DNA from: Thermosipho africanus Ob7
Lineage (GTDB): Bacteria; Thermotogota; Thermotogae; Thermotogales; Fervidobacteriaceae
Assembly (NCBI RefSeq): GCF_003351105.1
Contig: NZ_NKRG01000001.1
Coordinates: forward strand, 372,001-436,000
Length of the DNA stretch: 64,000 nt
Direction of reading: 5' to 3'
In this document: piece after piece, positions 2,131 through 40,638 of the stretch
Layout: each line of letters starts with the position of its first letter
Position numbering within the stretch: the stretch's first letter is position 1
The notes under the pieces: generated by a model
The model's database searches: none
The model's input: only the letters and a program-made list of their open reading frames with translations
Told to the model about the DNA's origin: nothing
Program-made: the position numbers and the translations under genes

Positions 2131-3266
2131 TTGTTAGAATCACTAATGGCTTTTTTCAAAGTACGGCGTTTATGAATTTAACGATTGGTAATATAGTTAT
2201 GTTTGCTGTTGCTGGCGTTTTAATATACATAGCAATAGCAAAAGATGCTGAACCATTGTTATTAATACCTATAGCTTTTGGAATTATTCTTGCAAATGTA
2301 CCTCCTGATGTGACTGGTATTTTAAATCCTCCTACAGAAACTTCACCTGGTGGTGTGCTCTGGTATTTGCAACAGGGCTTGGTCCTGGGAATTTACCCTC
2401 CATTGATATTTTTAGGTATAGGTGCATTAACAGACTTTTCATTTATGCTTTCTTATCCAATTACAATTTTCCTTGGTGGAGCGGCACAGATGGGGATATT
2501 TATAACATTTCTTTTAGCTAAATTTTTTGGTTTTAGTCTAAAGCAAGCTGCTTCAATAGGGATTATAGGTGGGGCAGATGGACCTACCTCAATATATATT
2601 ACTTCTAAATTTGCACCAGAACTATTATCAATAATTGCAATTTCGGCATATTCATATATAGCACTAATTCCTGTCTTACAACCTATGGTTTCAAAAATGC
2701 TTACAACCAAGGAAGAAAGAAGAATAAGAATGAAACCACCTAGAAAAGTAACAAAAACTGAAAGGGTACTATTTCCAATTGTAACAACTATAATAGTTGC
2801 TTTGATAATTCCAAAATCGTTGCCATTGATAGGAATGCTTATGTTTGGAAATCTTTTAAGAGAGGCTGGAGTTGTTAAGAGGTTAGTTGAAGCTGCAAGT
2901 AGGTATATTTTAGACACAGTAACAATTTTATTGTGTGTTTCAGTTGGTGCATCTGCAAGAGCGGATATTTTCTTAACACCTAAATCTCTTTTAGTATTTG
3001 GAATGGGTGCGGTAGCATTTGTTACTGCAATAACTTTTGGAATTTTATTTGCAAAATTGATGAACCTGTTCTTGAAAGATAAAATAAATCCATTAATTGG
3101 TGCAGCGGGAGTATCCGCGGTTCCAGATTCTGCAAGGGTTGCGCAAAGAATTGCACAAGAAGAAGATCCAACAAACTTTATTTTAATGCATGCAATGAGC
3201 CCAAATGTTGCTGGTGTTATTGGTTCAGCTGTTGCCGCAGGAATATTCTTATCATTAATTAAGTGA
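2131..3266 (+). CDS. oadB: Sodium-translocating decarboxylase beta subunit, frameshifted near 5' end
   Basis: Integral membrane subunit of biotin-dependent Na+-pumping decarboxylases (oxaloacetate, methylmalonyl-CoA or glutaconyl-CoA); it decarboxylates carboxybiotin and exports sodium. Family marks are IIGGADGPTSIYI, GASARADIFL and HAMSPNVAGVIGSA, with about ten hydrophobic segments. The natural start is TTG 2131 behind AAAGGAGGAG (2116-2124), reading M-LESLMAFF as in relatives, but that frame stops after 14 codons. The rest of the protein is one frame back (-1), continuing QSTAFMNLTIGN and intact to 3266. The switch point is T-TTT-TTC (2151-2157). An unbroken alternative would start at ATG 2172, or at GTG 2085 without a ribosome binding site. 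The 2-oxoacid oxidoreductase genes follow within 12 bases. Confidence 0.8.
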
Positions 3267-28900: not shown

Positions 28901-29743
28901 TTACCCCTCCAATAATTCTTCTATATATTTAGCAACGAAAATCCCCATATTATTTAATTTGTTTTCTTTATACTCTATTGAACCTTCATAGCCTTCGATA
29001 ATAGCACCTGCATGTCCCATTCTTTTGCCTTTTGGAGCAGTTCTTCCGGCAAAAAAAGACCTGTATATTAGCATTATAACCTTTTTTTAGAAATTTTTCT
29101 ATACCTATTATTTCATCATTACCGCCTATTTCACTGATGATAACAATTTTTCTTGGATTTAAATGCGTAACAAATTCTAAAGCTTCATCTATTGAAATTC
29201 CAATTATTGGATCACCGCCTAATCCAATTGCAATTTTAATACCAGTGGATTTTTTTGAAAGGTAATTGGATACTTCGTACATTAGAGTACCACTTTTTGA
29301 AATAATTGCTATATCTCCAGGTTTGAAATCTGATGATGGCATTATTCCAATTTTACTTACTCCTGGAAGAATAATTCCTGGACAATTTGGACCTACAAAT
29401 GTTATATTTTTCTCTTTTACTTTTTTATATATTTCGATCATATCGTGAATTGGAATGTGCTCAGTTATTGTGATGATTTTTTTAATTCCTGAATCAATGG
29501 CTTCAAATATAGCACTTTTAGCATAAAGGGTCGGAACAAAAACCACGCTAGTATCACATTTATATTTTTTTACAGCTTCGAACATGTTATCAAAAACAGG
29601 AATATTTTCAATATTTGTTACTTTATTGTTTTTTGAAACTCCACAAACTATATTTGTTCCATATTCAATCATTTTTTTGTGTGAAATTTACCATATTTTC
29701 CAGTAATACCTTGAGCACAGACTTTTTCATTTCCATTAATCAT
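28901..29743 (-). pseudogene. sucD: Succinyl-CoA synthetase alpha subunit, broken by two frameshifts
   Basis: The gene can be read from ATG 29743 (MINGNEKVCAQGITGKYG, with AAGGGGAAG upstream) to TAA 28901, in three frames. The first break is in an A7 run near 29684, where the N-terminal frame stops; the middle part 29672-29070 reads EYGTNIVCGVSK to NIQVFF; the second break is in a T7 run near 29063, after which AGRTAPKGKRMGHAGAIIEG continues to the family C-terminus. The second shift separates the phosphohistidine (in GHAGAI) from the rest. Total length fits a normal alpha subunit of about 280 residues. One-base slips in homopolymers could be phase variation or sequencing error, but the neighbouring sucC is damaged more deeply. 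Confidence 0.85.
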
Positions 29744-29754
29744 GATACTTCCCC

Positions 29755-30707
29755 TTATTGCAATTTAATCATCTCGTACATATCATCAAAATAAGCTATG
29801 TTATTTTCATCTAATATTCGTTTGGCTTCGTTTTCATTGGGTCCGGTAATTCTTACAAGTATAGGAACATTTTTATTTTCGTTTTTGAATTTTACGATTG
29901 CTTTTGCTATTTCGTCGCATTTTGTAATACAACCAAATATATTCATTATGATTTTTATACATTTAGTGATTTTAGTGATCTCATTGCTTCTAAAGTTATA
30001 TTTGAATTTGCTCCACCACCAAGATCCAAAAAGTTGGCAGGTTTTCCACAATATAGATTTACTGCATCCATTGTTGCCATAACTATTCCAGCTCCACAAC
30101 CGATACTGCCAATATCACCATCTAATTTTACAAAATGAAATGGATATTAATCATTTACAAATTCTTGAGCCCATTTTTGTCTAAATAATGCATTGTCATC
30201 AAGATGCATTACACAATCAAGCGCGATTAACTTGCCATTTTCATCTTCTGCAAGAAGATTAATTTCAAGAAGAGTCAATTCTTTTTCAATAAATAATTTA
30301 TATAGCTAATAACAATATCGTGAAATTTATCAGGCAGCTTTTTATAATCATTTATGTTTAGATTTAAAATATTATTTTTATTGTTTTCAATTTCTATACC
30401 ACCACTTTCTGAGAAAAGAATTTTTATATCTGTTTAATATTTATTTTTTCTTCAACAAGAATTGCATAAGGTTTTTCACCATGGATATCTTTTTCTAATA
30501 GATTTTATGTATTGGTGAAAAATTCGTCTTTTGTGTTTGCAAATTTCCACCTGCTTTCATTCTGCTTTCAACAAGGACTTGACTTTTTAAAACTGCTGGA
30601 AGAAATTTTACTTGTAGACTGTCTGAGTTTTTAATTACATAGCCATTTGGTGTTTCAATCCCTGCTTCTTTTAAAAGTTTTTTACCAACAAACTCATGAA
30701 TTTTCAC
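29755..30707 (-). pseudogene. sucC: Succinyl-CoA synthetase beta subunit, multiply frameshifted
   Basis: Starts at GTG 30707 behind GGAGGTGAG with IHEFVGKKLLKEAGI and VLKSQVLVESRMKAGG (ATP-grasp), and ends at TAA 29755 with VPILVRITGPNENEAK. Between them at least five shifts are needed: after KAGG, after INIKQ, after ISYI, after QEFVND and after SLKSLNV. Recognisable pieces are [63 protein letters not shown] and [17 protein letters not shown]. The span (953 bases) is short for a beta subunit of about 380 residues, with sequence missing around INIKQ, so real deletion has occurred. No full-length product can be made. Confidence 0.88.
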
Positions 30708-30730
30708 TATCTCACCTCCAAAGTATTGAA

Positions 30731-30766
30731 TAAAAAATTTTTCTCAATCTTCCCTCGAGATTGAGA
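30731..30766 (-). terminator. Intrinsic terminator of the cobalamin riboswitch
   Basis: Nine-base perfect stem TCTCAATCT / AGATTGAGA (30742-30766) with a seven-base loop, followed on the minus strand by AAAAATTTTTT, 24 bases ahead of the sucC start. Confidence 0.85.
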
Positions 30767-30777
30767 AACGTTTTGAA

Positions 30778-30936
30778 ATAAAGGCAGGTCTCCTGGCTTC
30801 CGAATCATCCTACTCTCCACGCCTTCCCAGGAATACTTCCCAGTGGCATACTGTGGATTTCGTCCTCGGTTACAGTGGCGGGGCCGCGCTGGATTTTCAC
30901 CAGCTTCCCTTTTAAGCCAAATAGGCACCTTTATTC
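30778..30936 (-). ncRNA. Cobalamin (B12) riboswitch aptamer
   Basis: Minus-strand sequence contains all core elements of the class: GGTGCC near the 5' end, AAAAGGGAAGCTGGTGAAAATC, GCGGCCCCGCCACTGTAACC, ATGCCACTGGGA and the terminal B12 box GAAGCCAGGAGACCTGCC. P1 pairs AATAAAGG with CCTTTATT. It is followed by an intrinsic terminator and then by sucC, sucD and the transporter gene. The usual logic is that adenosylcobalamin binding stops transcription. No B12 synthesis or uptake gene lies downstream, which is the common target of such switches. Confidence 0.95.
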
Positions 30937-30962
30937 CAAAATAATATTCACTTTTCTAGAGA

Positions 30963-31660: not shown

Positions 31661-31832
31661 GATCAACCTCCTTATCTATATATTAACAATTCATTTAGCA
31701 TCTTATTCTATAACATTGTGTAATAGATTTCAAGTAAAAATAAAGTTAATAACCTTAAATCTTTATAAATATGAAAGTTTGTATTGTTAATATTTTTTAT
31801 AGTTCTAAAAAACTGAAAAATGTTTATTTTTC

Positions 31833-31841
31833 TGGTATAAT
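31833..31841 (+). promoter_or_regulatory. Extended -10 promoter for the diiron-sensor/chemoreceptor operon
   Basis: TGGTATAAT, an extended -10 element, 24 bases before the start codon, with no clear -35. A ribosome site AAAGGGGG follows. Confidence 0.5.
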
Positions 31842-31864: not shown

Positions 31865-32629
31865 ATGAATAATATTTGTTTATATGATGATGGCAAGCAT
31901 AAATATTACCTTCTTGGTTGGGAAGAGACAGAGGATCCAAATATGGTTCCAACTAATCAATATTTAATTATCCATGAAAATAAAGGTTTTTTATTAGATC
32001 CAGGTGGAGCTCATGTTTTTCCAAGGGTGCTCGCAAATGTATCTGAAATTATTGCTCCTGAAAATATAGAAGGAATATTTTATTCGCACCAAGACCCTGA
32101 TGTTTCTTCTGGAATAACGATGTGGCTTACAATAGCAAGCAGAGCAAAAATTTATATTTCAGAACTTTGGATAAGATTTTTACCACATTTTGGCGTTTTT
32201 GATAAAAACAGAATAGTTGGACTAAAGGATAGAGGAGAAAAGGGTGTTAGATTTTCTGGATATACACTTGATTTTGTTCCGGCACATTTTTTGCATGCCC
32301 CAGGTCACTTTAATGTCTATGATCCAATCTCTAAAATATTATTTAGCGGTGATATAGGTGTTTCTTTACTACCATTTAGTCAAAGGGTGCAAATATATGA
32401 AGGCGACTTTAAAAATCTAGTAAGTGCAATGGAAGGTTTTCATAAAAGATATATGACTTCAAATGCTGCTTGTAAGATTTGGGTTGATAGAGTATCAGAA
32501 TATGAAATTTATATGATTGCTCCACAGCATGGTGCCGTTTTAAAGGGAAATGTTGTCAAAGAATTTTTGAAATGGTTTAAGACATTGAAATGTGGTAGCG
32601 ATATAATTGAACAATTTTACGGGAGATGA
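31865..32629 (+). CDS. Metallo-beta-lactamase-fold diiron protein, ODP-like oxygen sensor
   Basis: 254 residues resembling the beta-lactamase part of flavodiiron proteins but without a flavodoxin domain. Metal ligands expected from the family can be placed: His75, Asp77 and Asp79 in HQDPDVSS, His148 in APGHFNV, Asp163 in FSGDIG and His222 in APQHG; the position after Asp79 is Val where flavodiiron enzymes have His. This matches the oxygen-binding diiron protein (ODP) group, described in Treponema as an Fe/O2 sensor that acts with a soluble chemoreceptor. The next gene is such a receptor, overlapping by four bases, which strongly supports this role. Confidence 0.75.
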
Positions 32630-32634
32630 TAGAT

Positions 32635-33474
32635 ATGAAAATAGATGAAAAAACTTTAAATACTTTATCATCGGCTTTTTATGTACAGAATTTGATGTTA
32701 TCTTTTATGGCACAGTTGGATGAAGTATTAGTTTCAAGGATAAATGATATAAAAGATGATATAGAAAAGATTACCAGTAGATTTGAAGAATTAAATGATA
32801 ATATTTTTAAGCTTCTTGAGAGTTTTTCAAAAGAAAGTAAAAGTATAGTTGAAAACGTAGAATATGCTACAGAAGTTAATCAGAAAATTAATGATGATTT
32901 AAAAAGTCTTGGAACAGATGTTGATAATGTTTCATTAAAATTTAAAGATACAATAGGTAAAACATCAGAAACTTTTGAAAAATTTTCAAAAGTAGAAGAG
33001 CTTGTAAAAGCTATACAGAGGATTGCAAAACAAACAAATTTATTGGCATTAAATGCATCTATTGAAGCTGCAAGAGCAGGAGAATATGGAAAAGGATTTT
33101 CTGTTGTAGCATCTGAAATTCAAAAGTTGGCTGAAGAATCACAAGAAACATCCGCTAATATTTCAAAGATAATTTCTGAGATTTCAAATTCTGTAAATGA
33201 ATCTATTAATTCGTTAAAACAAATAGAGGGATTATTTAGTGCAGTGCAAAATTCATTAAGCGAAGCATTAAATTATATGAAAAAGAATATTCAGGTGTTA
33301 GTAAGCTCCAAAAAATTGTATGAAGATACGAGTGAAAGTTTGGAAAATGAATATAAATTGTTGTCAAATGCAGTGGAAATTTTAGGTGAAACTTCTAAGG
33401 AATTTAATACGATTAGTGAAGTCATACGTTCAATCGTTAAAGCACAAAATTCTTTGAAAGATTTAAAGTTATAG
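32635..33474 (+). CDS. Cytoplasmic methyl-accepting chemotaxis protein
   Basis: 279 residues, all soluble: no membrane helix is seen. An N-terminal alpha-helical region of about 110 residues leads to the conserved hairpin tip [20 protein letters not shown] (residues 130-149) and [18 protein letters not shown], the CheA/CheW contact site. The flanking heptads are coiled coil. It lacks a ligand domain of its own, so it should take its input from a partner, most simply the ODP-like protein made from the overlapping gene upstream. ATG 32635 has GGGAG nine bases upstream; ATG 32626 in the same frame is possible. The result would be an oxygen or iron taxis unit. Confidence 0.85.
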
Positions 33475-33489
33475 AAAGGAAGGAAATGT

Positions 33490-33696
33490 ATGAAGGAAAA
33501 GGCTTTTTTAATTATACATGGTTTTGAACAGAGAGATGAATTATTTAAATTAATAAAGTTATTGAAAGATAATTTTCCAGAAAAGGAGCTGATTTTTGCA
33601 ACGACGACTCCAACTAATTTAGAATGGAAACTATCAGATTTGATAGTTGAAATTGAAAAGGAGCATGAATTTATGAAAAAGACGAAGCAGAAGTAG
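33490..33696 (+). CDS. Small conserved protein, DUF3783-like
   Basis: 68 residues with an alternating alpha/beta pattern (KAFLIIHGFEQRDELFKLIKLL, then KELIFATTTPTNLEWKL), resembling the DUF3783 group of about 70 residues. Function unknown. GAAAGGAAGG lies ahead of ATG 33490, and it sits between the chemoreceptor and infB with short gaps, so it is probably part of the same transcript as infB. Confidence 0.5.
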   Translation: MKEKAFLIIHGFEQRDELFKLIKLLKDNFPEKELIFATTTPTNLEWKLSDLIVEIEKEHEFMKKTKQK

Positions 33697-38955: not shown

Positions 38956-40638
38956 ATGATGTTTGAAAAAGAAAAATTGGAAAAGATAAAACAGGGAATG
39001 GAAAAGTATCAACAAAATGTTGAGAAAGCTGTACAAAGGTTTCCGGAAAGAAAGGAAAAATTTACTTCTACATCAGGATATGAAATTAAAAGGTTGTATA
39101 CCCCATTAGATATTCCAGATCTTGATTATGAAAAAGATTTAGGTTTTCCAGGAATGTTTCCATATACGCGTGGTGTTCAGCCAACAATGTATCGTGCAAG
39201 ATTTTGGACAATGAGGCAATATGCAGGTTTTGGAACCGCTGAAGAATCAAACAAGAGATATAAATATCTTTTAGAACAAGGGCAAATGGGACTTTCGGTT
39301 GCATTTGATCTTCCAACGCAAATTGGATACGATTCTGATGATCCAATGGCAGAAGGTGAAGTTGGAAAAGTTGGCGTTGCAATAGATTCTCTTGAAGACA
39401 TGGAGGTTCTTTTTGATGGAATTCCATTGGATAAAGTTAGTACTTCAATGACAATTAATAGTACTGCAGCAATTTTACTTGCTATGTATATTGCAGTAGC
39501 TGAAAAACAAGGTGTGCCAATGGAAAAACTTTCAGGTACTATACAAAATGACATATTAAAAGAATATATTGCAAGAGGGACTTATATATTCCCACCACAA
39601 CCTTCAATGAGAATTATTACTGATATTTTTGATTTCTGTTCTAAAAACATGCCTAAATGGAATCCAATAAGCATTAGTGGGTATCATATAAGAGAAGCAG
39701 GTGCAACTGCAGTTCAGGAAGTTGCATTTACTTTAGCTGATGCTATAGCTTATGTAGAAGCTGCAATAAAGGCAGGATTAGATCCAAATGTTTTTGGTCA
39801 AAGGTTATCTTTCTTCTTTGCTGCACACAATAACTTCTTAGAAGAAATTGCAAAGTTTAGAGCAGCAAGAAGACTTTGGGCAAAAATAATGAAGGAAAGA
39901 TTTAACGTTACAAATCCTAAAGCAATGCTTTTGAGATTCCATACTCAAACAGGTGGTTCGACGTTAACAGCTCAACAACCAATGAATAATATTGTAAGGG
40001 TTACAATTCAGGCCTTAGCTGCAGTTTTAGGTGGTACTCAATCTCTACATACAAATAGTTATGATGAAGCTTTAGGACTTCCAACTGAGGAATCAGTTAG
40101 AATAGCACTTAGAACTCAACAAATAATTGCATACGAATCTGGTGTAGCAGACACAATTGATCCACTTGCAGGCTCTTATGCAATTGAAGCAATGACTAGT
40201 GAGATAGAGAAAAGGGCAATGGAATATATTGAGAAGATTGATCAGATGGGTGGAATGGTAAAAGCAATTGAAATGGGTTATATACAAAAAGAAATACATG
40301 AGAGTGCATATAAATCACAACTAGCAATTGAAAATGGAGAGGATATAATTGTAGGTGTAAATAAATTCCAAATTGAAGAAGATCTTTCTCAAAAAGAAGT
40401 GTTAAAGGTTGATCCAGAATTAGAAGAAAAGCAAAAACAAAAATTAAAGAAACTAAAAGAAAAAAGAGACAATGAAAAGGTTAAAAAGGTTTTAAATAAT
40501 GTAAAAAAGGCCGCATCGAGTGATGAAAATTTAATGCCGTATATTTTAGAAGCAGTTAAAGCTTATGCTACTGTTGGTGAAATAAGTAATGCTTTAAGAG
40601 AAGTATTTGGTGAATATACTGAGACAATAATAATTTAA
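38956..40638 (+). CDS. Methylmalonyl-CoA mutase large subunit (N-terminal barrel part)
   Basis: 560 residues covering the substrate-binding TIM barrel: [48 protein letters not shown] with the cobalamin-facing histidine region, and [12 protein letters not shown]. It interconverts succinyl-CoA and methylmalonyl-CoA. The C-terminal cobalamin-binding domain with DxHxxG is not in this protein nor in the window, as expected for two-subunit enzymes. The last 90 residues are a lysine-rich helical tail. ATG 38956 or 38959 follows GAGGGGG. An acyl-CoA mutase of related specificity cannot be excluded. It links to the decarboxylase genes and the B12 switch elsewhere in the window. Confidence 0.9.

Follow-up and report, generated by a model that had tools for sequence, protein, structure and literature searches.

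The 64,000-nucleotide stretch of Thermosipho africanus Ob7 DNA analyzed here (the window) carries on its forward strand a gene for a predicted oxygen-binding di-iron protein (ODP), followed closely by a gene for a predicted soluble chemoreceptor. The features of this pair and its immediate control region are:

31813-31841, + strand: promoter-like site, CTGAAA-17-TATAAT with a TG-extended -10, 10/12 matches (such sites are not enriched over shuffles)
31865-32629, + strand: ODP gene, 254 aa, metallo-beta-lactamase-fold oxygen-binding di-iron protein
32621-32625, + strand: GGGAG, probable ribosome-binding site of the receptor gene, within the ODP gene and 9 nt before the ATG at 32635
32635-33474, + strand: soluble chemoreceptor gene from its preferred ATG, 279 aa, putative Tm14 ortholog; assigned by its MCPsignal and 3g67 matches, ribosome-binding-site spacing and genus comparison

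The receptor frame is also open from an ATG at 32626 (32626-33474, + strand, 282 aa), which forms the ATGA overlap from which an earlier note on this DNA had argued for translational coupling. While the overlap exists, GGGAG abuts the ATG at 32626 without a spacer, whereas the ATG at 32635 is preceded by a 9-nt spacer; furthermore, in one congener (L051) the overlapping ATG opens a different frame from that of the receptor and runs into a stop codon, while each of the four genomes compared within the genus (L001, L051, L053 and L058) keeps the equivalent of the ATG at 32635. Because of this spacing and the genus comparison, the receptor probably starts at 32635, leaving a 5-nt gap after the ODP gene, and the overlapping ATG is thought unlikely to serve as its start. 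A point against this choice is that, when the most upstream start codon is taken across lineages, a 4-nt overlap is the commonest ODP-receptor spacing (35 of 134 pairs), so that overlap starts may be real elsewhere.

The extended -10 element of the promoter claimed in the same note, TGGTATAAT, is present with CTGAAA 17 nt upstream, 10/12 matches in all; shuffling the region, however, yields such sites about as often (14 found, 12.4 +/- 3.1 expected). The pair is flanked by a divergent Vut_1 gene, DUF3783 and infB in all four members of the genus; none of the remaining loci of the 141 compared showed these flanks, but most of those loci extend just 1.5-4 kb past the ODP gene. The position beside infB, previously described as unusual, is thus confined to the genus within that span of comparison and looks like a local gene arrangement. 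The small DUF3783 protein between the receptor gene and infB (33490-33696, + strand; PF12646, E 4.8e-15) was likewise seen only in the genus among the loci compared. Elsewhere in the window, a succinyl-CoA ligase-like gene pair, named by reading the translations (28986-30947, - strand), has been disrupted by frameshifts and stop codons; ahead of it stands a cobalamin riboswitch (RF00174, 144.7 bits, 30766-30947), and an uninterrupted methylmalonyl-CoA mutase gene lies nearby (38956-40638).

The family assignments are clear for both proteins. The first matches the Pfam ODP family PF19583 over the whole model (positions 1-194 of 194) with an E value of 3.8e-73 and 246 bits, against a curated cut-off of 27.2 bits; ODP and Lactamase_B are its only Pfam matches, and it is a stand-alone protein in whose 254 residues the Pfam search found neither a flavodoxin domain nor any other redox domain. 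For the second protein, MCPsignal (E 5.7e-33) is the sole match above cut-off among the 25 listed of its 36 matched families, with no sensory domain among them. These results uphold the earlier identification of an ODP-like di-iron protein next to a soluble chemoreceptor that lacks a sensory domain. The highest 19-residue Kyte-Doolittle means are 1.06 for the ODP and 1.02 for the receptor, neither protein containing a strongly hydrophobic stretch, and both are thus compatible with the cytoplasmic location previously proposed. The receptor is predicted to be all helical and to form a long hairpin (mean pLDDT 86.6, pTM 0.49). Among solved structures, the best relatives of the ODP are 6qrq/6qwo and 6qnm/6r9n, which are named oxygen-binding di-iron protein (E 4.9e-100 for 6qrq), and those of the receptor are 3g67/3g6b, titled soluble chemoreceptor from Thermotoga maritima (E 3.7e-31 for 3g67). 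The aligned part of the 6qrq chain has an exact match in a single locus, L006 of genome G090, and the aligned part of 3g67 is exact in L006 and L007; in L006 the ODP frame (1399-2181) precedes the receptor frame (2191-3027), the same order as in the window. Because the neighbors in L006 match the aligned parts of 6qrq and 3g67 letter for letter, the window pair is, as judged from sequence, the ortholog of the T. maritima ODP-Tm14 pair.

The predicted metal ligands of the window ODP are H75, D77, D79, H144, D163 and H222, accompanied by the ODP-specific Gln221; their roles were assigned through alignment with flavodiiron proteins and from PMC7785958. Conservation was assessed in ODPs defined strictly, as stand-alone proteins scoring >200 bits, because the PF19583 cut-off of 27.2 bits is loose: a full flavodiiron protein of the window genome (L002), separate from the ODP and possessing a flavodoxin domain, passes it with 95-98 bits. 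H75, Q76, D77, D79, H141, H144, D163, Q221 and H222 are present in all 124 distinct strict ODPs, which were drawn from 139 genes, and V80 in 123 of the 124, with Thr at this position in L117; in a selected set of 67 ODPs, all of these residues, V80 included, occur in 67/67. The PF19583 cut-off also admits other matches of ~390-450 aa at ~82-110 bits, and since the one of these that was checked (L002) is a flavodiiron protein, automatic ODP labels may be over-broad.

The window motif HQDPDV, with Val80, contrasts with HAEQDH in L002, which also has SHG, and bears out the earlier observation of Val where flavodiiron proteins have the second His. Doubt about Val80 as a marker, raised by the Ala at this position in the T. 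maritima flavodiiron structure 4dik, was dropped; 4dik, 4dil and 5v8s are engineered H90A, H90N and H90D mutants, so the Val-for-His distinction stands. According to PMC7785958, the third His of motif 2 is replaced in the T. maritima ODP by Gln at motif 5, and the Val80 and Gln221 of the window ODP fit this substitution. The beta-lactamase fold suggested earlier is likewise supported by the Lactamase_B match and by the predicted structure (mean pLDDT 92.6), which superposes on the 6qwo/6qrq chains with TM scores of 0.92-0.95 and rmsd of 1.5-1.6 and on the Treponema denticola ODP chains with TM scores of 0.86-0.88; the fold search was headed by ortholog structures with apo, zinc and peroxo-di-iron states in their titles.

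The window genome contains the partners that such a pair would need to act in chemotaxis. CheA and CheW, whose presence had been suggested as a check, were both found: one CheA match, and three occurrences of the CheW domain, including one within a CheA-like frame of 684 aa. There are in addition two CheR-family matches, three flagellin matches and 12 MCP matches, of which 10 exceed the cut-off, one of these with internal stops. This last (G000:C12:24008-24472, - strand), an MCP signalling domain with eight internal stops, is probably a decayed receptor.

Strict ODPs occur in 57 of 103 Thermotogota genomes, a count that leaves out a 223-bit GGDEF fusion in G051 as not stand-alone (the same genome carries a stand-alone ODP as well). 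With a profile built from the paired receptors, among the matches listed best first and, in many genomes, among the 24 best first-pass candidates scored, each of these 57 genomes had one match of at least 262 bits, and the other 46 of the 103 had none at that level. All other matches listed reached at most 135 bits, and most of them start past model position 20 (exceptions: G000 C1:305464, position 5, and G046 C3:20132, position 7). The ODP and this receptor class are thus present or absent together across the 103 Thermotogota genomes compared, and the receptor gene adjoins the ODP gene in 57/57 Thermotogota loci. A CheA match was found in 79/103 genomes, including 56 of the 57 with an ODP and 23 of the 46 without (Fisher p 2.7e-9, a value that ignores shared ancestry); the sole ODP genome without one, G074, is 60% complete, and the match in G082, one of the 23, is weak at 28.3 bits. 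Because these 23 genomes are CheA-positive without an ODP, the ODP is not required for having a chemotaxis kinase. In L050 (2691-4218) and L054 (3218-4747), two tandem ODP genes precede a single receptor gene; the ligand residues are retained in each copy, and the upstream copy scores lower against the window ODP.

In a wider genome collection, from which the best 80 of 326 stretches encoding relatives were examined (some overlapping the Thermotogota set), a receptor of at most 340 aa, in a few cases cut by a contig end, follows within 300 nt downstream in 78/80. These 80 include Synergistota, Aquificota, Thermodesulfovibrio, Desulfurella, Thermodesulfobacterium, Dictyoglomota and Spirochaetota. 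One exception, L112, has receptor matches upstream only. The other, L117 (3443-6403, Aquificaceae), which has Thr for Val80, lacks the small downstream receptor; the protein encoded downstream instead is 664 aa long and bears a chemoreceptor zinc-binding (CZB) domain. No natural ODP-receptor fusion was found among the three long ODP-like hits (L059-L061, ~650-675 aa), all of which combine an ODP domain with a GGDEF domain and, at the C terminus, a receiver domain. On visual inspection, L059 seems to retain its metal motifs and L060 and L061 seem to have lost theirs, while the GGDEF signature appears degenerate.

Our analysis strongly favors the view that this pair represents the ODP:MCP module for oxygen/iron taxis already described in Thermotoga and Treponema, and we hold this with high confidence. 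Family membership, ligand conservation, gene pairing and co-occurrence with the receptor class and with CheA are established here, and to the extent that sequence can speak to function, the earlier reading as an oxygen- or iron-taxis pair was right; its comparison with Treponema holds in that the system is known there, but the closest solved case is that of T. maritima (56-57% versus 45% ODP identity). By analogy, the ODP would bind two iron ions in a flavodiiron-like site without a flavin domain, and O2 would bind the di-ferrous site and be held as a peroxo species rather than reduced. The iron/oxygen state would alter the shape of the ODP, which would signal to a receptor without a sensor domain of its own; the receptor would in turn join the CheA/CheW array and adjust CheA activity, hence swimming. 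Iron and O2 binding, the peroxo species, the conformation-dependent receptor interaction and CheA modulation are carried over from papers and PDB titles on relatives, and we infer that the ODP of the window organism would work as theirs does.

The alternative that survives best is that the pair senses mainly iron, or another metal, with oxygen binding secondary. In their title, Muok et al. (2019), who originally described the ODP, call it an Fe[II] and oxygen sensor, and a zinc-reconstituted ODP structure exists; set against these are the peroxo-di-iron structure (6r9n, by its title) and PMC7666581, which describe an oxygen sensor. The sequence of the window ODP fits either role, and we consider a primarily metal-sensing role unlikely. 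It is very improbable that the receptor works without the ODP, in a separate cytoplasmic array or as a component of array structure: although the receptor is soluble and PMC7666581 reports a change in CheA ordering when the ODP is deleted, the receptor class and the ODP are both present or both absent in 103/103 genomes, and the window genome has only one CheA match. Finally, the idea that the metalloprotein is an O2- or NO-detoxifying enzyme of flavodiiron type that merely adjoins a receptor gene, which draws on the anaerobic lifestyle of Thermotogota and on a fold and most ligands common to flavodiiron proteins (TM by query length 0.67-0.78), is rejected as having hardly any likelihood, given an ODP with no flavodoxin or redox domain, the separate full flavodiiron protein L002 in the same genome, Gln221 in 124/124 and Val80 in 123/124 distinct ODPs, and receptor pairing in 57/57 Thermotogota loci.

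The ends of the receptor chain offer a candidate site at which the separate sensor could reach a receptor without a sensory domain. Two elements are concerned, in 279-aa numbering:

32650-32739, + strand: codons of the N-terminal element, residues 6-35 (N19, S23, F24, L28, D29, R35), marked by conservation; proposed half of the ODP dock
33418-33471, + strand: codons of the C-terminal element, residues 262-279 (Q271, K275), marked by conservation; second proposed half of the dock

A receptor folded as a hairpin brings its two chain ends together at a long distance from its tip. Aligning 114 distinct paired receptors (282-aa numbering) gives, per column, a mean information content of 2.3-3.7 bits for residues 125-174, around the kinase-binding tip, 1.95-2.1 bits for residues 11-40 and 265-282, and 1.2-1.9 bits for the stretches between; the ends thus form a second, weaker peak, with stretches beside the tip close behind at 1.81 and 1.93. 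Among 59 high-scoring receptors, mostly from Thermotogota and Synergistota, S23 is kept in 59/59, F24 in 56, L28 in 54, D29 in 53, R35 in 51, Q271 in 56 and K275 in 48 (279-aa numbering); the corresponding counts for all 114 are 92, 74, 70, 66, 67, 74 and 64. We tentatively propose that the ODP docks at the free end of the hairpin, on a composite cap formed by SSxxYxxNxxxSFxxxLDxxLxxR and VIxxIxxAQxxLKxI, which would replace the missing sensory domain, although we put this at somewhat short of an even chance. Against this proposal, the element is weaker in Aquificota and spirochete receptors, in which profile matches often begin after position 20, and conservation of the ends could instead serve dimer or array packing. 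Because the aligned part of 3g67 comprises only residues 42-252 of the 278-aa L006 receptor, the Tm14 structure is without both ends and cannot show such a dock, and no paper mapping it was found in a literature collection containing few subscription journals. The conserved receptor ends provide a target for mapping how a separate sensor plugs into a sensorless receptor.

Much of what is proposed here has precedent. ODP has been described as an iron- and oxygen-binding protein whose interaction with its cognate receptors depends on conformation (PMC6978683). As recounted in PMC7319448, the original analysis found ODPs encoded in operons with receptor genes, in two orders, or alongside further signalling genes, and also as fusions to signalling domains. 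In T. denticola, ODP is genetically coupled to TDE2496, a receptor able to modulate CheA activity, and its deletion alters CheA ordering; no obvious density for ODP was seen in the arrays, with which ODP may interact peripherally, a point that counts against the reading adopted here (PMC7666581). With the description of Tm14 in PMC12871147, these accounts place the pairing, the mechanism and the fusions already in print. Flavodiiron proteins such as T. maritima TM0755 (1VME) share with the ODP the metallo-beta-lactamase core and the di-iron site, whereas the ODP, at 15-22% identity to them, has no flavodoxin domain, Asp77 in place of Glu, Val80 in place of His, and Gln221 before the last His. 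The T. denticola ODP, TDE2498 (6QNM, 6R9N), has the same fold and aligned ligands at 45-48% identity, and TDE2496, like the window receptor, is described in PMC7666581 as being without transmembrane and sensing modules; T. denticola differs in being a spirochete with, as portrayed there, an unusual array architecture. The closest counterpart is T. maritima, in which the ODP (6QRQ, 6QWO) and Tm14 (3G67, 3G6B) represent the same two genes in the same order with the same ligands. Identity is 56-57% for the ODP and 36% for the receptor, where divergence is largest, and the neighborhoods differ, the window pair preceding DUF3783 and infB. Tm14, which PMC12871147 presents as having no ligand-binding domain and no canonical methylation sites, resembles the window receptor in lacking the former. 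The window pair is therefore a further, ordinary example of the known ODP:MCP system, and a well-supported one of a flavodiiron-like protein acting as the detachable sensor of a chemoreceptor.
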